Assembly (NCBI RefSeq): GCF_000711885.1
Contig: NZ_JONK01000032.1
Location: 1 to 60,447, forward strand
DNA from: Chromobacterium haemolyticum DSM 19808
GTDB taxonomy: Bacteria > Pseudomonadota > Gammaproteobacteria > Burkholderiales > Chromobacteriaceae
Direction of reading: 5' to 3'
DNA: 60,447 nt
Below are positions 48,208 to 60,447 of the stretch, one piece after another (position 1 is the first letter of the stretch; each line of letters begins with the position of its first letter). A program made the position numbers and the translations under genes. Below the pieces are notes generated by a model. The model did no database searches and was not told the DNA's origin. It saw nothing but the letters and a program-made list of their open reading frames with translations.

Positions 48208-49498
48208 TTTCTAGGCTGCCTGTCCGGCAGAGAACAGTCCACGCCATAGCCTGTTGTGCCCCAATACTTTCTAAGCTGCCTATCCGGCAGAGAACATGGA
48301 CGACTACCATTGCATCCGCGTCGCCCATTTCTAAGCTGCCTATCCGGCAGAGAACGCAAGGGCCACGGTAGGGCTTTCACTCAGCAATTTCTAAGCTGCC
48401 TATCCGGCAGAGAACCCATAGAAGCGCACAGACCCAGTGGCTGGTTCTTTCTAAGCTACCTATCCGGCAGAGAACGGCGGGCACAAAACGCCCGCATGGG
48501 GCCCCTATTTCTAAGCTGCCTATCCGGCAGAGAACGGCGGGCGTTTCGCAACAGCCGCAGATTCTAATTTCTAAGCTGCCTGTCCGGCAGAGAACACCGC
48601 ACCCACGCACAAGGCGGCTCGCGTGATTTTCTAAGCTGCCTGTCCGGCAGAGAACCTGTTGATACCGGAGCCGTTAGGATTGTTGTTTTTCTAAGCTGCC
48701 TGTCCGGCAGAGAACTGCTTGGCCATCACGCGAGCCGCCTTGTGCGTTTTCTAAGCTGCCTGTCCGGCAGAGAACTACAACATCGAGCAGGCATTGCGCG
48801 CGCCATCTTTCTAAGCTGCCTGTCCGGCAGAGAACCTAGTGGCGGATGGCTCGCTCGTGGGGCGGCGTTTCTAAGCTGCCTGTCCGGCAGAGAACACGGA
48901 TCACTACAACGGACACTTTGAACTTTTTTTTCTAAGCTGCCTGTCCGGCAGAGAACCGCTAGCGGGACTTGCGGAGCGCCCTCCTCTTTTTCTAAGCTGC
49001 CTGTCCGGCAGAGAACACGGGTAGGGGGCGTCAGCCTGTGTGGGTCAATTTCTAAGCTGCCTGTCCGGCAGAGAACCGTATCGTTCTATTAATCGAAAGA
49101 TGCACCATTTTCTAAGCTGCCTGTCCGGCAGAGAACAGATGTGATCACCGTCCTTTTCATGCGTTTGATTTCTAAGCTGCCTGTCCGGCAGAGAACCTCA
49201 ACGTCCAGCCGGCTCAGGCTCCCCAGTCTTTCTAAGCTGCCTGTCCGGCAGAGAACGTTGGGTAATAAATACGATATCAACGCCTTTGTTTTCTAAGCTG
49301 CCTGTCCGGCAGAGAACTCCGCATGAGTGTTCATTGACCTGGACGGGCATTTCTAAGCTGCCTGTCCGGCAGAGAACATCGATTACATCTCGATCTCGCA
49401 GCTGCATCCGTTTCTAAGCTGCCTGTCCGGCAGAGAACGCTGGCGACAGTAGAAACTTGAAGCGGCCACTTTTCTAAGCTGCCTGTCCGGCAGAGAAC
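48208..49498 (-). CRISPR. Type I-F CRISPR array 1 (22 repeats, 21 spacers)
   Basis: 28-nt repeats at 60-61 bp period; spacers are 32 nt, three of them 33. In crRNA sense (minus strand) repeats start GTTCT and end CTTAGAAA with the Csy4 hairpin CTGCC-GGACA-GGCAG. Transcription leftwards is supported by csy4 upstream on the same strand and by the degenerate first repeat at 48208-48235 (TAGG for TAAG). Repeats 2-6 (48268-48535) have loop GGATA; repeat 5 (48448-48475) also has a base change in the stem region; repeats 7-22 and repeat 1 have GGACA. The leader-proximal end is at 49498. Spacers at 48596-48627 and 48716-48747 are reverse complements over 23 nt. Confidence 0.98.
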
Positions 49499-49627
49499 TA
49501 GACCCTTTCTCCCGCAAACCCGCGCCAGCCGGGGAAAGCATCGCTTTCCCCAATAAAAACCCTTTTATCCCGCCCCGCGCCAAGCCATTGATTTAAAAGG
49601 CTTGGCGGTGGGGCTGGAAAAAAAGGG
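49499..49627 (-). promoter_or_regulatory. Leader of CRISPR array 1 with an IHF site
   Basis: The 129 bp between csy4 and the array. On the minus strand it holds AATCAATGGCTTG (49581-49593), a perfect match to the IHF consensus WATCAANNNNTTR, 83 bp from the first repeat. Two hairpins overlap it or follow: CGCCAAGCC/GGCTTGGCG (49578-49607) and GGGGAAAGC/GCTTTCCCC (49533-49553). IHF is known to be required for I-F spacer integration in studied systems. Confidence 0.7.
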
Positions 49628-50185
49628 TTAGAACCACGGCACGGTGGCGTCGGGGCTGAGGCCGAAGGTGTTGAAGCGGCCGCTGTGGGTGGCTGGGGCC
49701 GGGCGTTGTTCGATGTGCAACTGATAGCGCTGGCCGGTGCTGGCGCTGTTGAGGGTGAGGAAGGGCAGGGTTAGCCGGCGGGCGGCGCTGTCCGGGAAGC
49801 GCTGCGCGGCTTCTTCCGCGCTGATGCCCAGCCGCCGCACCAGCCGGCGGCGTTCCTTGTCCGGATTGGTCTTGGCCTGTTTGCGCCGCACCTGCCAGGC
49901 TTCCGCCTGAGGCGGCACCGGCTGGATGGCGGCCAGCGCGATGTGGTCGCGCATGCCGCTGAGCCAGTCGCCGGCCATCAGCCGCTGCAAGGCGGCGTGG
50001 CCGCCGTGCAGGCGCAGGGTGTCGCCCAGCGCGGCGGCCGGGGCCGCGCGCGGGAAACTGACGCCGATGTCGTCGCGGTCTTGCTCGCTCAGCGCGCGGT
50101 GCAGCTTGGCGAACAGCGCGTTCATCAGCAGCGTGGGCGCAAACTCCGGGTCCGGGCGCAGCCGGATGTCCAGGTAATGATCCAT
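49628..50185 (-). CDS. csy4: Type I-F CRISPR endoribonuclease Csy4 (Cas6f)
   Basis: Cuts the pre-crRNA at the base of each repeat hairpin and stays on the 3' end of the crRNA. The 185-residue product closely follows the P. aeruginosa protein (187): MDHYLDIRLRPDPEF start, catalytic His29 (AKLHRAL), the active-site serine region NSASTGQ (Ser147/Ser149), and the arginine-rich helix that reads the stem (QAKTNPDKERRRLVRR). Catalysis should be intact. Last of csy1-csy2-csy3-csy4, 3 bp after csy3 and next to array 1. Confidence 0.96.
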   Translation of the reverse strand: MDHYLDIRLRPDPEFAPTLLMNALFAKLHRALSEQDRDDIGVSFPRAAPAAALGDTLRLHGGHAALQRLMAGDWLSGMRDHIALAAIQPVPPQAEAWQVRRKQAKTNPDKERRRLVRRLGISAEEAAQRFPDSAARRLTLPFLTLNSASTGQRYQLHIEQRPAPATHSGRFNTFGLSPDATVPWF

Positions 50186-50188
50186 GGC

Positions 50189-51226
50189 TTACTCCGCCGC
50201 GCCGAACACGCCGCCGCGGATCAGCGTGGCCAGCACAAAGTGCTGGTCATGCTGCGACGGAGCCTGGTCTTTCAGTACCCAGTTGTCCAGCAGGGTGTAG
50301 AAGTCGGACTTGGCCTTGGGCTGGCGGCAGGCCTTGCCCAGCGTGGTGACCGAGCCGTAGGGCTCCACCGCGATGGGGCCGAGTTGCTCGGCTTCCGGGT
50401 GCCAGTCGTCTATGGTGCGGATGGCGTTGCCCAGTTTCTGCGAGTGGATGGCGGCAATCTTCAGCGCCCCTTGCTCAATGGCGTACAGGGTCTTGCTCTT
50501 GTCGCCGCGGCCGCGCTCCAGTACCAGTTCCTGCGAGGGGAACACTTCCTGGCCGGCGCCCAGCCGCGCAAAGGCGGTGATTTGCAACAGCAGATGGCGC
50601 TGACCGGCCAGGCCGGCGGCGATGGCGGCGGCCAGCTGTTCCAGCGCGGCGGCCTGGCTGCCGGGGTCGAAGTGGCGCAGGGACAGCGCCAGCGCGTCGA
50701 ATTGCCATTGCTGCGCCGGCTGGCCTTGCTCCAGCAGCGCCACCCGCACCTCCACCTGCTCCGCGCCCACGCGGTTGCGCCACAGGAAGCGGCCGTTGGC
50801 CAGGTTGCAGGCATAGCGGCGCGCCAGCTCGGCAAAGCCGTGGGCTTGCACATAGCCGGCCACGGTGGCGCGCAGCTTGGCCTGGTAGGCGCTGTCGTTG
50901 CAGGCGGACGGCGCGCCGACATTGCCCAATACCCGCAGCGTGAAGCTGACTTTCAAGGTGTCCGCATGGTGCGGCAGCGCGGCCACGTCCACGGTTTGCA
51001 GATTGGGGTTTTCAATCTGCGCGTCCAGCTTGGCCGGGTCCTGATCCTTGGTTTTCAGGCGGTTGGAAATGGTGCCGCGCACGGATTTTTCGATGACCCT
51101 GACCGGCTCCCAGCCGGCGTGCTGCTCGCGCTGTTGCCAGTCGCCGGCGTGGAACAAGGCGTCGGACGGGTCCAGCTTGCGTTCAAAGGCCAATACGGTA
51201 GCGGTTTTCAGCGGTGCGGTGCTCAT
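50189..51226 (-). CDS. csy3: Type I-F Cascade backbone Csy3 (Cas7f)
   Basis: Six copies of this protein form the helical backbone along the crRNA spacer. The 345-residue product matches Csy3 (about 340 in P. aeruginosa), with [19 protein letters not shown] at the start, [35 protein letters not shown] and later [18 protein letters not shown]. It lies 12 bp after csy2 and is in one operon with it. Confidence 0.95.
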
Positions 51227-51238
51227 GAGGCTTCCTTT

Positions 51239-52237
51239 CTAGTCTTCTATTTCCAAGGTGGCGGCGTAATCATTGCGGCAGCGGTACAAGCCGCTGGCGG
51301 TGTCGTCGTCGGCGTACCACAGCAACTGGGCGACATCGTGCAGCCGGTGCGGGCTGACCCATTCGCCCAGCGAATACAGGCTTTCCACAAAGCGGAACGG
51401 CGTATGCGCGTCGCGGGCGTTGGCCACGCTGCCGGCCGGGTAGAGCGGGGACAGCGCGCCGTAGCCCACTGGCATCGGCACCGTCCAGCCCTGGCTGTGG
51501 CCGCGTTGGCTGCGCCATTCCAGCGTGCGGCGCGGCTCGCCGCCGGCCGGGTCGGCTTGTTCCTGCCAGTGCGGCGCGTGGTTGATGCGGGACAAGTCCA
51601 GCCAGGCGTCGAAGAGGTCTGTCTGCGGCTGGCTGGCGCGCAGGGCGGCCAGGTGGCTTTGCAGCAGGTCGTCGCGGGATACCAGCGCAAAGCCGGGCAG
51701 CAGGCTGCGTCGCAATTGGCGGAATTGTTCGCGTCGTTCCGTCTCGTTCTCGCTCAAGGTCATCAACTGCGGCGCGGGACGGCGGCGGCCGGGCAGCGGC
51801 GGTGTCACGCTGCCGCCGGCAATGCGCATGCCGTGCAGGGTGTCCGCCACCTGCCGCGCCAGTTCCGGCAGCTGTTCCTTGGGCGCGGCCAGCGCTTCGC
51901 CGGTGAGACCGAACAGCAGGCTGATGTCCAGATGAATGCGGCCTTCCTCCACGATGGCGGCGGTGGCGCCGTCCTTGTCCACCGGGTTGCGGCTGAGGTG
52001 GAAACCCTGGGTGTACGCGCCGCTGGTCTGCGGCTGGTAATGGTGGCAGACCACGCCCACCGCCTCGAACTGCAAATCCAGGCTGCCGGCCAGCTTGCGC
52101 TCCAGCGCCTGGGCCAGGCCGGTGAAGGCGGTAATGGCCGGAAAGCCCCAAGTGAAGGGGCTGGAGATGGCGTTGGCGTTTTGCACCCGCAGCCGGGGCA
52201 CGCTCAGCAGGCCGGTGATCACGGGCAGGGTGCTCAT
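51239..52237 (-). CDS. csy2: Type I-F Cascade subunit Csy2 (Cas5f)
   Basis: Binds the crRNA 5' handle together with Csy1. The 332-residue product begins MSTLPVITGLLSVPRLRVQNANAISSPFTWGFPAITAFTGLAQAL, the well conserved Csy2 opening. The ATG at 52237 overlaps the csy1 stop (ATGA); the frame extends further upstream but that part is csy1 read in another frame. Csy1 and Csy2 are separate proteins, unlike the fused Cas8f-Cas5f of transposon-borne I-F3 systems. Confidence 0.95.
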   Translation of the reverse strand: MSTLPVITGLLSVPRLRVQNANAISSPFTWGFPAITAFTGLAQALERKLAGSLDLQFEAVGVVCHHYQPQTSGAYTQGFHLSRNPVDKDGATAAIVEEGRIHLDISLLFGLTGEALAAPKEQLPELARQVADTLHGMRIAGGSVTPPLPGRRRPAPQLMTLSENETERREQFRQLRRSLLPGFALVSRDDLLQSHLAALRASQPQTDLFDAWLDLSRINHAPHWQEQADPAGGEPRRTLEWRSQRGHSQGWTVPMPVGYGALSPLYPAGSVANARDAHTPFRFVESLYSLGEWVSPHRLHDVAQLLWYADDDTASGLYRCRNDYAATLEIED

Positions 52238-53577
52238 GCTTGCTCCTTGGCCATGGCCGCCAGCTGGCGGCGGGTTTGATCGTGCTGGGCCTGCCAGCCC
52301 AGGTCTCCGGCCAACTCGCGCGCCCAGTGGCGGAATTCCGCGTCGCCCATCTCCAGCGGGCTGGCGTCGAATTGCTGGTTCAGCCAGCGACCGAAGCGCT
52401 TGGCCACTTCCAGCGGCCAGTCCTCGCCGTGCCAGCGCGCGGCAAAGTCCGCGTCGGCATCGGCGCGCCAAGGGTCCAGCCACAGCTGTTGGCATTCCGG
52501 CAGCCGGCAACGCGTGTCCGCGCTCCAGCCGGGCGGCAGGCCTTCGTGCATTTCCTTGCCGAACAGCAGCAGTTCCTCCAGCAGCGCGTCGCTTAGCTCG
52601 TCGCGGCGGTCGCGGGTGTCCATGATCTTGCGCGGTTGGCTTTCCAGGAAGGCGCGCAGTTGGCGGACCAGCCGGCGCACATCGTTGCGGCGGCCAAAGC
52701 GCAGCAGCGCGTCCTCGCTATTGAGCGGCGGTTTCAGGCCCAGGCTCCGCCACTGCGGCGGCAAGGAAGCCAGTAGATAGTTATTGCCCTTGCGTTCGCT
52801 ATTGAGCTGGGAAATATTCTGCGGCTTGGTGCCGCCCAGCTTCTGCACCGCCAGCTGCGGATAATCGCAATAGCCGTGCGGGTGATCGCGCTGTTCGCGG
52901 CGGGCCTGGCGCGCGGCCTTGGCGGCTTCTCCGAAGCGGTGCTCCTGGATGGTTTGGTACAGCCGTTGCGCCAGCGCGCTGGGGTAAAGCGGAGCCAGCA
53001 GGTGGTAGTGCTCGTCCTTGGCCGGCTCGTAACCCACCAGCCAATACACTTGCTTGGCGCGGCTGTGGCTGGCGGCCGCCGCGCCGGCGTCGGTTAGCGC
53101 GGCGAAGGCGGCGATCCAGGCTTGCGCCTGCTCGGGGTTGTCGCTGAGCGCGGCGGCCAAGTCGGCGTCCTGAGCCAAGGCCAGCGCCAGCAGGCTTTGG
53201 CCGTCGTGCTGTTGCTTCAGAAACTTGTACACATCCAGCGCGGCGGCGTTGCCCACCACGTCGTCGGCAAAATCCGCGCCCAGGCAGTGGCTGCCCACTT
53301 CGCGGCGCGGCGGCAGGGTGGAGGGCGGCGCGTACAGATTGCTGCCGCGGGCGTCTGGGTGGATGGCTTTAAGGGTATGGGTGGCGGCTTGCAGTTGGCC
53401 GGCGCGGCGGGCCGCGTCCGCCAGCCAGGCGGCGGGCTGGTGTTGGGCCAGCAGCGCTTCGCGCTTGGCGTCGTCGTCGGGTGCAAGCTTGTCCAGCTTG
53501 TCGTCGCGCCGTTGCCGGATGAAGTCGGCCATCAAGGCGCGTAGTGCGGTGGCGCGGGGCGTGAGGGTAGGGGGCAT
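52234..53577 (-). CDS. csy1: Type I-F Cascade large subunit Csy1 (Cas8f)
   Basis: The large subunit that recognises the CC PAM and recruits the Cas2-3 nuclease. The 447-residue product (about 434 in P. aeruginosa) has the acidic-basic N-terminal region, GSHCLGADFADDVVGNAAALDVYKFL, VYWLVGYEPAKDEHYHLLAPLYPSALAQRLYQ, GGTKPQNISQLNSERKGNNYLLASLPPQW and the C-terminal HWARELAGDLGWQAQHD, all typical. AAGGA lies 5 bp before the ATG. In canonical loci cas1 and cas2-3 come immediately before csy1; here they are absent and a short leader is found. Confidence 0.95.
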   Translation of the reverse strand: MPPTLTPRATALRALMADFIRQRRDDKLDKLAPDDDAKREALLAQHQPAAWLADAARRAGQLQAATHTLKAIHPDARGSNLYAPPSTLPPRREVGSHCLGADFADDVVGNAAALDVYKFLKQQHDGQSLLALALAQDADLAAALSDNPEQAQAWIAAFAALTDAGAAAASHSRAKQVYWLVGYEPAKDEHYHLLAPLYPSALAQRLYQTIQEHRFGEAAKAARQARREQRDHPHGYCDYPQLAVQKLGGTKPQNISQLNSERKGNNYLLASLPPQWRSLGLKPPLNSEDALLRFGRRNDVRRLVRQLRAFLESQPRKIMDTRDRRDELSDALLEELLLFGKEMHEGLPPGWSADTRCRLPECQQLWLDPWRADADADFAARWHGEDWPLEVAKRFGRWLNQQFDASPLEMGDAEFRHWARELAGDLGWQAQHDQTRRQLAAMAKEQA

Positions 53578-54504: not shown

Positions 54505-57500
54505 ATGACTTTGACCGCTTCTCGCCTCCCCGTCAGCGCCGCACAGCACGGCATCTGGATGGGGCAGCAGCTTTCCCCTGACAACCCGAGCTACCTCACC
54601 GCCGAAGCCACCGAACTGCGCGGCGCGCTAGATCTGGACGCCTTGCGCGATAGCGCCGCCGAGGTGCTGGCCAATTGCGCGGCGCTTAACATGCGCTTCG
54701 AGTTTGACGGCAGCCAGCTGTGGCAGCAGCCGGTGGCCGCGCAGGCGGAGATACCCTGCCTGGACTTCAGCGCGGAAGCGGAACCGGAAGCGGCGGCGCG
54801 GGCCTGGGTGGTCCAGTCATTGGCGCGGCCGTGCGATCCGTCGCGGGACGCGCTCTATCTTGGCGCGGTGTTGAAGCTGGGACCGGAGCGGCACTGGTGG
54901 TATCTGCAGACCCACCATATCGCGCTGGACGGCTTCGCCTACGGCCTGCTGAGCCAAGCGCTGGCGGCGCGCTACAGCGCCCGCGTCAAGCAGCAGGCCC
55001 TGCCGCCGCTGGCGGATTGGTCGCTGGACAAGATCATCGCCGCCGATCACGCCTACCAGGCCAGCGAGGCCTGCGCGCAAGACCGCGCCTTCTGGCTGCA
55101 ACGCCAAGGCCGGCAGCCGGCGGCCAGCACGCTGGCGCCCGCCGCCTTGCTGGCGGACGGGGTGAACAAGGCCGAGCAATGGCTGAGCCCGGCGCAGATC
55201 GCCGCCTGGCAGACCTCCGCCAAACAACACGGCGTGGACTGGGGCGCTTGGCTGCTGGCGGCGGTGGGTGCCTGGCTGACCAAGCACAGCGGCCGCCGAG
55301 CGCTGACCCTGGGCCTGCCGGTGATGAATCGCCTGGGCACGCCGGCGCTGGCGGTGCCGTGCATGGCGATGAATATCGCGCCGCTAAGCCTGCGGCTGGA
55401 TGAAGACCTGAGCGCGGCGGACTTGAGCCGCCAACTGGCGGACAGCCTGCGCGATATCCGGCCGCATCAGCGCTATCGCTACGAGCAACTGCGCGGCGAT
55501 TTGGCGCGCGTGGGCGGCCAGCAGCGCTTGTTCGGCGCGGTGGTGAACCTGATGCCTTTCGACCGCCGCGCGCCGTTTGCCGGCCTGGACAGCCGGGTGC
55601 TGCCGCTGGGCTCCGGCCCGGTGGAAGATGTGTCGATCAATTTCAGCCTGCTGAACACCGAATGGCGGCTGTGCCTGGAAGCCAACCCCAACGCCTACCC
55701 GCAGGCGGAGCTGGACGGCTTGCGCGATGATTTGCTGGCCTGGCTGGACGCCTGGGCCGGCCGTGCGCCGGACGTCGTTCTGAGAGAGCTGTTGCCGGAG
55801 CTCCCGCCGCTGAGCGTGCTGGACGGCGCGACGCTGGAACGCGAGCCGCGGGAGGTGCTGAGCCTGATCCGCGCCGCCGCCGCCGCGCGGCCGGATGCGA
55901 TCGCCCTGGAGCAAGACGGCGAGCGCCTGTCCTACCGCGCGCTGTTGCAGCGCGTGCTGCAACTGGCCGGCCGCTTGCAAGCCGCCGGCCTGCAGGCGGA
56001 AGAACGGGTGGCCATCGTGCTGCCGCGCAGCCCGGAAGCCATCGTCGCCATCCTGGCCACGCTGTGGGCCGGCGGCTGCTATGTGCCGCTGGACCCGCAC
56101 GGCCCGCCCACACGGCTGGCCATGGTGCTGGACGACGCGCAGCCTCGGCTGGCCGTCACCCTGAGCGCCTGGCGTCCGCTACTGGGCGAAGTGCCGGCGC
56201 TGTGCCTGGACCTGCCGCCGCAACAGGACGCGCTGGCCGCCGCGGACCCGGCGCCGGCAGCCGAGCAAGCCGCCTATCTGCTCTACACCTCCGGCTCCAC
56301 CGGCAAGCCCAACGGCGTGCTGGTCAGCCACGGTGCGCTGGCCCAGTTCGTCAGCAGCGCCGGCCAGCTGTATCGCATCGGCGCCGACGAACGCATCCTG
56401 CAATTCGCGCCGCTGCATTTTGACGCCAGCATCGAAGAAATCTTCCTGGCGCTGTGCCATGGCGGCACCCTGGTGCTGCGCACCGACGCGATGCTGGAAT
56501 CCATGCCGGCCTTCGCCGCCGCGGTGGCGTGCCAGCGCATCAGCGTGCTGGACCTGCCCACCGCCTTCTGGCACGAACTGGCCTTTGCCTTGCAGCCGGA
56601 ACTGGCCGCGCAGCTGGCCAGCGTGCGGCTGACCATCATCGGCGGCGAAGCCGCGCTGCTGGAACGCGCCGGCCGCTGGCAAGCGCTATTGCCGGACAGC
56701 GTGCTGCTCAACAGCTACGGCCCCACCGAAACCTCCATCATCGCCACCAGCGCCATCCTGTCCGGCCCCGGCGCGGTGTGGGACGGCAGCGACAGCGTGC
56801 CCATCGGCCTGCCGCGCCCCGGCGTGCGCGCCGTCATCGTGGACGATCGCCTGCAGCCTGTGGCGCAGGGCGAGGACGGCGAACTGTGCCTGCTGGGCGA
56901 GGCGCTGGCCATCGGCTACCTGGGCCGCGAAGAACTCACCGCGCGCCGTTTCGTCACCATGGACGCCCTGCCCGGCGCGCCGCGCGCCTACCGCACCGGC
57001 GACCGCGCGTGCCTGAGCGACGGCCAACTGCGCTTCCTGGGCCGGCTGGATCATGAAATGAAAATCAGCGGTCTGCGCATCGACCCCGCCGAAATCGAAA
57101 ACGCGCTGCTGGCCTGCCCGGACGTGCGCGAGGCCGCGGTGGTGGGCCTGCCGCTGGCCGGCGGCGGCTATACCCTGGCCGCCTTCCTCAGCGGCGGCGA
57201 TACCGATCCGGCGACGATGCGCTCGCGCCTGGCCGATGTGCTGCCGGCGGCGGCCATCCCGGACCACTGGCGCTGGCTGGACAGCCTGCCGCGCAACGTC
57301 AACGGCAAGATAGACCGCAAGCAGCTGGCCGCCGGCATGGAAGCGCAAGCGCCGGCCGCGGCGGAGGACGCCAGCCCGCTGGAGCGCCAGGTGATGGAGG
57401 TGTGGCAGCAAGTGTTGGGCGTCACCCCGCCCAGCCGGCACGCCAACTTCTTCGAACTCGGCGGCAAATCGCTGCAAGCCATCCAGGTGGCCAACCGGCT

Positions 57501-58389
57501 GGCGCAGCGCCTGAACCGCGAAGTGGCGGTGTCCGCGCTATTCAGCCACAGCACGGTGGCGGCGCTGGCGCAGGCGCTGAGCGCGCCCGCCGCGCACCGG
57601 CCCCCGTCCGCCAGCGAAGGCCAGGAATTCGCGCCGCTGCTGACCATCCAGCCCGGTGCGCTGCCGGCGCTGTTCTGTCTGCACCCGGCGGAAGGCCTGT
57701 CCTGGTGCTACCTGGGCCTGGCCAAACACCTGCCCGGCGTCGCAATTTACGGCCTGCAGGCCACCGGCATCACCGGCGAGAAGCCGGCCAGCTTCGACGC
57801 GATGGTGGCGGACTACGTGGCCCGCGTGCGCGAAGTCCAGCCGCAAGGGCCGTACCGGCTGCTGGGCTGGTCCCTGGGCGGCGGGCTGGTGCAGGCGATG
57901 GCGGCGCAGCTGCGCGCCGCCGGCGAAACCGTGGAACTGGCGGCGCTGATGGACAGCTATCCAACCGCCAGCTGGCAAGGCCGGCCGCAACCGACACTGC
58001 ACGACGCGCTGGTGACAGTGCTTAGCGTCAACGGCGAAGTGGACGCCGACGAAAACGGCCAGCCGCTGGACAACGAGGCGATCTACCAACGCCTGCTGCG
58101 CCCCGGCAGCCCGCTGGCGCCGTTGGGCCGCGCCGCGCTGGAGCGGCTGGGCGAGGCCTCGCTGTACGGCATGCAATTGTTTCGCGACAGCCAAACCCCG
58201 CGCTACGACGGCGACGTGCTGCTGTTCCGCGCCGGCGTCCACCCGGAAGACGCGCCCAAGCCGGAAGACTGGCAGCCCTTCCTCGGCGGCAAGCTGGAGT
58301 GCGTGGAACTGGACTGCGATCACTTCGGCATGAGCGACCCGGAGCCGATGCGGCGGATAGGCGAGGAGTTGGCCCGGCGCTTGGCTTGA
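54505..58389 (+). CDS. Single-module nonribosomal peptide synthetase (C-A-PCP-TE), EntF-like siderophore type
   Basis: A 1294-residue, EntF-sized synthetase. Condensation domain from about residue 8 with HHIALDG (H137, H138, D142). Adenylation domain from about 460 with YTSGSTGKPNG (593-603), FDAS (D640), SYGPTE and the catalytic Lys935 in NGKIDRKQL. Carrier domain with LGGKSL (Ser989). Thioesterase with GWSLGG (Ser1123) and DHFGM (His1273). The Fur box points to a catecholate siderophore. Residues lining the amino-acid pocket, read by eye, are roughly D-A-E-A-I-G-S-I-I-K, closer to lysine-type codes than to the serine code of EntF. No dihydroxybenzoate genes are present in the window. Confidence 0.88.
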   Translation: MTLTASRLPVSAAQHGIWMGQQLSPDNPSYLTAEATELRGALDLDALRDSAAEVLANCAALNMRFEFDGSQLWQQPVAAQAEIPCLDFSAEAEPEAAARAWVVQSLARPCDPSRDALYLGAVLKLGPERHWWYLQTHHIALDGFAYGLLSQALAARYSARVKQQALPPLADWSLDKIIAADHAYQASEACAQDRAFWLQRQGRQPAASTLAPAALLADGVNKAEQWLSPAQIAAWQTSAKQHGVDWGAWLLAAVGAWLTKHSGRRALTLGLPVMNRLGTPALAVPCMAMNIAPLSLRLDEDLSAADLSRQLADSLRDIRPHQRYRYEQLRGDLARVGGQQRLFGAVVNLMPFDRRAPFAGLDSRVLPLGSGPVEDVSINFSLLNTEWRLCLEANPNAYPQAELDGLRDDLLAWLDAWAGRAPDVVLRELLPELPPLSVLDGATLEREPREVLSLIRAAAAARPDAIALEQDGERLSYRALLQRVLQLAGRLQAAGLQAEERVAIVLPRSPEAIVAILATLWAGGCYVPLDPHGPPTRLAMVLDDAQPRLAVTLSAWRPLLGEVPALCLDLPPQQDALAAADPAPAAEQAAYLLYTSGSTGKPNGVLVSHGALAQFVSSAGQLYRIGADERILQFAPLHFDASIEEIFLALCHGGTLVLRTDAMLESMPAFAAAVACQRISVLDLPTAFWHELAFALQPELAAQLASVRLTIIGGEAALLERAGRWQALLPDSVLLNSYGPTETSIIATSAILSGPGAVWDGSDSVPIGLPRPGVRAVIVDDRLQPVAQGEDGELCLLGEALAIGYLGREELTARRFVTMDALPGAPRAYRTGDRACLSDGQLRFLGRLDHEMKISGLRIDPAEIENALLACPDVREAAVVGLPLAGGGYTLAAFLSGGDTDPATMRSRLADVLPAAAIPDHWRWLDSLPRNVNGKIDRKQLAAGMEAQAPAAAEDASPLERQVMEVWQQVLGVTPPSRHANFFELGGKSLQAIQVANRLAQRLNREVAVSALFSHSTVAALAQALSAPAAHRPPSASEGQEFAPLLTIQPGALPALFCLHPAEGLSWCYLGLAKHLPGVAIYGLQATGITGEKPASFDAMVADYVARVREVQPQGPYRLLGWSLGGGLVQAMAAQLRAAGETVELAALMDSYPTASWQGRPQPTLHDALVTVLSVNGEVDADENGQPLDNEAIYQRLLRPGSPLAPLGRAALERLGEASLYGMQLFRDSQTPRYDGDVLLFRAGVHPEDAPKPEDWQPFLGGKLECVELDCDHFGMSDPEPMRRIGEELARRLA

Positions 58390-59259: not shown

Positions 59260-60447
59260 TTTCTAAGCGGCTTATTCGGCCGTGAGCCATGCCCGACAAT
59301 ACGGCTAGCTTGCTGTCTTTTCTAAGCTGCCTATCCGGCAGTGAACGACGAGTGCGCAACCCTTGCCGAGTTTTTGCATTTCTAAGCTGCCTATCCGGCA
59401 GTGAACCGGAGAACAGACTTGAGCACCAAGCTTTTCTGTTTCTAAGCTGCCTATCCGGCAGTGAACCATTTCGTCCGCCGCGTTCTGCTCGACGCTCATT
59501 TCTAAGCTGCCTGTCCGGCAGTGAACCCACAGTTCGACCCCCATCCCTGTAACACGGGTTTCTAAGCTGCCTATCCGGCAGTGAACCGGTAGACGCCTCT
59601 CGCGGTCTCGTCTGCGATTTTCTAAGCTGCCTATCCGGCAGTGAACCCAGGACATGGGCGGCAGATAACGAACGGAGTTTTCTAAGCTGCCTATCCGGCA
59701 GTGAACTTGTCACGGCTGCGCCTGATTTCGTTCGCGAGTTTCTAAGCTGCCTATCCGGCAGTGAACGAATGACGGCATTCTCCCGTCTTTCCCGATCTTT
59801 TCTAAGCTGCCTATCCGGCAGTGAACCCCCCGCTCCGTACTGGTCTTTGCATTGCCCGTTTTCTAAGCTGCCTATCCGGCAGTGAACCGAGCGCGCGTCG
59901 CGGCGGACTCTGCGCTGACTTTCTAAGCTGCCTATCCGGCAGTGAACGGCGGGCGCTTCGATCATCTGTGGCGGGAGGATTTCTAAGCTGCCTATCCGGC
60001 AGTGAACGCTGGCGGCCTAGTCCCCCTACCCCCTTCTGTTTTCTAAGCTGCCTATCCGGCAGTGAACGAACTCACCATCGTTGACGCTCACTTTTTCCAT
60101 TTCTAAGCTGCCTATCCGGCAGTGAACCCGTTGCAGGATACGTGATAGCGGACGTACTATTTCTAAGCTGCCTATCCGGCAGTGAACGGACGATGGGACT
60201 TATTGCATGTTGCCGGAATTTTCTAAGCTGCCTATCCGGCAGTGAACATTATGCAAATCATGCTTTTCGCTTACTTTACTTTCTAAGCTGCCTATCCGGC
60301 AGTGAACGGCTCGCGCGCCACGCCGGCGCAGGCTGCTGATTTCTAAGCTGCCTATCCGGCAGTGAACGTTGGGGCCGCGCACGCACGGCTTTCCCTCGTT
60401 TTCTAAGCTGCCTATCCGGCAGTGAACGCCAGATGACGACGATGACG
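59260..60447 (-). CRISPR. Type I-F CRISPR array 2 (20 repeats visible, continues beyond the window)
   Basis: 28-nt repeats, mostly 60 bp period. In crRNA sense repeats start GTTCA and end CTTAGAAA, hairpin CTGCC-GGATA-GGCAG; they differ from array 1 at the base before the stem (A in place of T) and usually in the loop. Repeat 5 (59499-59526) has the GGACA loop. The leftmost repeat (59260-59287) has five changes and marks the leader-distal end, so the leader, and possibly cas1 and cas2-3, should lie to the right outside the window. Nineteen full spacers (31-33 nt) and a partial one are seen. Confidence 0.98.

Follow-up and report, generated by a model that had tools for sequence, protein, structure and literature searches.

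Results

The window analyzed here is one whole contig (C29, 60,447 bases) from a genome of 5.03 Mb assembled into 63 contigs. It carries a CRISPR array, A1 (positions 48208 to 49498, minus strand; 22 repeats, 21 spacers), and, on the same strand, the genes csy4/cas6f, encoding the crRNA-processing endoribonuclease (49628 to 50185), csy3/cas7f (50189 to 51226), csy2/cas5f (51239 to 52510, longest open frame), and csy1/cas8f (52234 to 53577, longest open frame), all identified with NCBIfam and PADLOC. All four scored above the NCBIfam cut-offs, and the best PADLOC models for these genes were of type I-F. The family match spans residues 44 to 427 of 447 in the csy1 frame and residues 104 to 412 of 423 in the csy2 frame, so the true start of csy2 is probably internal. 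The 129 nt between A1 and csy4 (49499 to 49627, minus strand) are, by their position, the presumed leader. Two further genes lie on another contig, C8, above cut-off, without stops, and again with type I-F models as the best in PADLOC: a subtype I-F cas1 (C8:777-1694) and a fused cas2-3 (C8:1715-5050). A1 thus belongs to a complete type I-F CRISPR-Cas system, which bears out the type assigned in a preliminary description of this DNA. Among 19 genomes of the genus, 6 carry csy1 and 8 carry cas1 above cut-off; in the five other csy1 genomes, the two genes share a contig, with 3.7 to 14.5 kb between them.

The same system has two more arrays. A2, whose repeat is GTTCACTGCCGGATAGGCAGCTTAGAAA, has 20 repeats and 19 spacers (59260 to 60427, minus strand) and is cut off by the end of the contig; A3 lies on C8, its first repeat preceded by the first 153 to 157 bases of that contig (G000:C8:1-157, locus L011). 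Near-identical copies of those bases occur at 13 further places in the genome, which makes it probable that an insertion sequence has landed in a repeat. This insertion has probably divided a single array into A2 and A3, as suggested by their common repeats and by the single array found there in a sister genome (G001, locus L139), which has the same two repeat types, with an array next to csy4 and another next to cas1. The window also encodes, between the csy operon and A2, a 1,294-aa siderophore-type peptide synthetase (MxcG/EntF-like; 54505 to 58389).

In the crRNA sense (minus strand), the A1 repeat reads GTTCTCTGCCGGACAGGCAGCTTAGAAA and is predicted to fold into a CTGCC/GGCAG stem. Spacers are 32 nt (18 of 21) or 33 nt (3 of 21) long; the 28-nt repeat with its short hairpin and the predominance of 32-nt spacers are as in type I-F arrays. 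The csy operon (53577 down to 49628) lies on the A1 crRNA strand, its end 129 nt away from the array, and a deviant end repeat stands at the low-coordinate end (48208); from repeat sense, operon placement, and the deviant repeat, the leader side of A1 is at high coordinates. Five older repeats (48268 to 48535) read GGATAG, whereas the end repeat (48208) and those from 48568 on read GGACAG. This switch falls immediately to the older side of the spacer pair described below.

Two A1 spacers, both 32 nt and read from the minus strand, overlap in opposite sense: spacer no. 15 from the leader (48596 to 48627) and spacer no. 13 (48716 to 48747), with no. 14 (48656 to 48687) between them. The common 23-mer occupies 48605 to 48627 on the plus strand and 48725 to 48747 on the minus strand, so that, in the crRNA sense, no. 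13 and no. 15 begin with 23 nt that are reverse complements of each other. The preliminary description had proposed this overlap and a joined 41-bp target, and direct comparison found both to be exact. Since no. 13 is nearer the leader, it was taken up later, on the usual premise that arrays grow from the leader side; the polarity of A1 supports the order previously suggested, and the two are called here the older (48596) and the younger (48716) spacer.

Joining the two spacers gives a 41-nt contig in which each supplies the flank of the other. Read in the crRNA direction (minus strand), the contig letters upstream are TGCTTGGCC for the older spacer and ACCGCACCC for the younger, as previously described (...TTGGCC and ...GCACCC), with CC directly before both protospacers. 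The two protospacers point towards each other, one on each strand, with 23 bp between their CC motifs.

Apart from this pair, the longest stretch common to any two of the 46 spacers (A1, A2, and A3 together) measures 10 nt. Shuffling the spacers 60 times gave a maximum of 9 nt in 20 sets, 10 nt in 30, 11 nt in 8, and 13 nt in 2. That spacers from unrelated targets overlap by chance is therefore excluded for all practical purposes: the pair shares 23 identical bases, the shuffled sets never exceeded 13, and no point speaks in favor of chance. The focal spacers were copied from opposite strands of one short shared target stretch. A second opposite-sense pair, 48476/48536, shares 10 nt, which is inside the shuffle range, and was rejected.

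The younger spacer could also be one fragment, or the existing spacer, inserted again in flipped orientation. Flipping does occur in type I-F systems, but seldom (less than 0.5% of spacers; PMC5059440), and here the overlap covers only 23 of 32 nt and each spacer has its own CC, so neither spacer is a flipped copy of the other; we consider such an origin extremely unlikely.

The CC motif was examined on independent spacers. A1 spacers, and then A2 and A3 spacers, were searched against the same 61 genomes of the family, and the matching regions were fetched, loci being picked for their spacer matches and not for their flanks (one target, that of A2#14, lies in the window's own genome). In the fetched loci, 20 of 46 spacers had an ungapped target outside arrays at no more than 5 mismatches; spacer no. 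14 of A1, between the focal spacers, had none in these loci at that threshold. CC stood directly before the best target in 10/13 cases at up to 2 mismatches, 12/16 at up to 3, and 13/20 at up to 5; the seven exceptions were A1#1 (TC), A1#8 (TT), A2#12 (GC), A2#14 (CG), A2#16 (CT), A2#6 (CA), and A3#4 (GC). The dinucleotide CC has a frequency of 8.6% in the window and of 5.9 to 6.2% in three phage-bearing regions; against the former background, the binomial probability of at least 10/13 is 5e-9. This enrichment before independent targets means that the motif suggested by the pair is the motif of these arrays, and the earlier identification of CC as the type I-F PAM agrees with the 10/13 of other spacers' targets that carry it at up to 2 mismatches.

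Many recognizable targets of these arrays are filamentous phages, as judged from the genes around them. Three target regions, G001:C21, G005:C26, and G012:C1, encode Zot/pI-like assembly proteins, and two of them, G005:C26 and G012:C1, also encode G2P-type replication proteins; the frames of a fourth, G004:C118, were assessed by reading. Eleven spacers match in or beside filamentous-phage genes (A1#1, #6, #7, #8, #9, and #17; A2#4, #7, #12, and #15; A3#4), and the targets of A1#2 and A2#5 are no more than about 5 kb away from the filamentous-phage genes of G012. Single elements are matched by several spacers: five in G001:C21, four in G004:C118, and three in G005:C26. Other targets also lie close together on opposite strands, 23 bp apart for A1#9/A2#15 and 25 bp apart for A1#1/A2#12. 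A search of A1 against a phage collection returned 12 weak records (E values of 1 to 5), which were rejected. Spacer A1#17 (48476 to 48507) contains a hairpin, GCGGGC/GCCCGC, and matches G005:C26:43784-43815 perfectly, between two frames of a filamentous phage.

The homologous phages of G001:C21 and G004:C118 bear on whether one element or two supplied the focal pair, since both carry targets of A1#9, A2#15, and A3#4 (G004:C118 also carries that of A2#4). Two different but related elements with a common 41-bp stretch may likewise have given one spacer each, but the 23 common bases are identical and a second element is not needed, which leaves this a rather unlikely origin.

Two neighboring A2 spacers (59587 to 59618 and 59647 to 59678) imperfectly match a prophage of the same genome with portal, terminase, and RusA genes (G000:C3:332056-332085, minus strand, and G000:C3:335767-335801, plus strand; locus L136). 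One target has CC and a 3-nt insertion, and the other has a CG flank and 3 mismatches; from these sequences, the resident prophage looks to have escaped its host's A2 spacers.

The source of the 41-nt contig was sought widely. IMG/VR held no match to the exact 23-mer, to an exact 18-mer core, or to reverse-translated THKAARVMAK or the opposite frame; a looser KAARVMAK pattern hit four contigs, all with S at the R position and 15 to 23 of 41 bases different, which were rejected. At 13 IMG/VR loci with relatives of an inovirus replication protein, no spacer matched at up to 9 mismatches, nor the contig at up to 14. GTDB genomes (84,980 species) had neither the exact 20-mer nor reverse-translated HKAARVMAK, and the best blastn hits in phages and plasmids (E values of 2 and 6) were rejected as chance. 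At up to 3 mismatches, the 23-mer occurred in 1 of 19 genomes of the genus, as the array itself, and in the window's own genome it was nowhere outside the pair.

In a sample of the order, 11 of 300 genomes matched the 23-mer: the window's own genome and 10 others with 3 mismatches each. A reversed control pattern was absent among the matches listed, so some of these 3-mismatch hits go beyond mere chance; all ten differ from the contig at 14 to 19 of 41 bases and were rejected as sources. In five of them (G337, G323, G272, G330, and G338), a long open frame contains ..TFTNKAAREM.. or ..TFTRKAAREM.., which we take to be a conserved helicase motif. Family BLAST similarities in G018 and G016 had 14 and 16 mismatches in 41 and were rejected as chance; that in G018 is inside a 781-aa open frame reading AARKMAKQL. 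The source was thus not found in IMG/VR, GTDB, phages, plasmids, the genus, or the family, and records near the window's genome are possibly absent from them.

Discussion

The pair probably records a shared target with facing CC protospacers, from which the younger spacer was gained by primed or interference-driven acquisition, a step that we infer from the array. The older crRNA (48596) would have met its invader again, and Cas1 with Cas2-3, starting at the older protospacer, would have captured the neighboring protospacer as the younger spacer (48716). That the older spacer primed the younger is likely, given the 23-nt identity, CC on both sides, the complete cas set, and several spacers per element. 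Against this account, the flanks are seen in joined spacers and not in a real source, 7 of 20 other targets lack CC, and another spacer stands between the two. Array order places the older spacer first; whether uptake of the younger one required it is a separate matter.

In several respects the locus resembles the type I-F system of Pectobacterium atrosepticum. There, according to PMC4117759, priming draws spacers from either strand in the vicinity of the first protospacer, GG after the protospacer corresponds to CC in the crRNA sense, spacers are mostly 32 nt, and one system has several arrays; both the invader and the spacer that did the priming were known in that work, whereas here priming is deduced from the array. 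In a study of interference-driven acquisition in the same species (PMC5059440), the motif and the clustering of new spacers are alike, but neither slipping nor flipping, both treated in that study, applies to the focal pair. The younger protospacer is on the older one's non-target strand and reaches 9 nt 5' of it. In P. atrosepticum, about 43% of new spacers came from the non-target strand 5' of the first protospacer and fewer than 8% from the same strand 3' of it (PMC4117759). Facing protospacers, however, give the same geometry whichever came first, so placement on the favored side says little about priming.

Two independent, naive uptakes from the same kind of invader would leave a similar pair if two CC sites happened to be near each other in a genome that is small or frequently sampled. 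We simulated this on three inovirus-bearing stretches (7.1, 8.5, and 11 kb), where random CC protospacers overlapped by at least 10 nt in opposite sense at 0.0022 to 0.0033 per pair. With 25 to 36 same-element pairs, a number estimated from clusters, about 0.1 overlaps are expected, which is not rare enough to dismiss naive uptake; for a larger invader, fewer would be expected. The sister genome G001 also has one opposite-strand overlap, of 19 nt, among the 36 spacers of the fetched stretch; that pair belongs to two arrays, and its overlap is at the 3' end of the spacer as read, so that, unlike the focal pair, it reveals no motif. The longest such overlap was 11 nt in G004 (65 spacers, part of its arrays) and 8 nt in G012 (17 spacers). 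Several spacers per element in these arrays, and the fact that type I-F priming yields just such a pattern (PMC4117759), argue against independent naive uptake, which we regard as unlikely though by no means negligible.

The first 23 nt of the two focal crRNAs are complementary to each other. In the predicted fold of a 208-nt precursor, both spacers enter one 23-bp stem and the flanking repeats pair with each other instead of forming local hairpins (z, -4.6; 0 of 200 shuffles as stable). Any inverted repeat makes such a stem, so the predicted stem is no evidence of function. Pairing of these crRNAs, in the precursor or as free guides, could lower the supply of both guides, an effect that we think very improbable; if it were real, overlapping uptake from opposite strands would carry a cost to immunity.

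Primed or interference-driven acquisition from a shared target, our preferred account, is a well-described process, and the focal pair is an ordinary trace of repeated immunization that changes no view of type I-F adaptation. The targets recognized show that this system samples small filamentous phages repeatedly. The array by itself, without a sequenced invader, gives the recognition motif of its system, and the other spacers bear that motif out.
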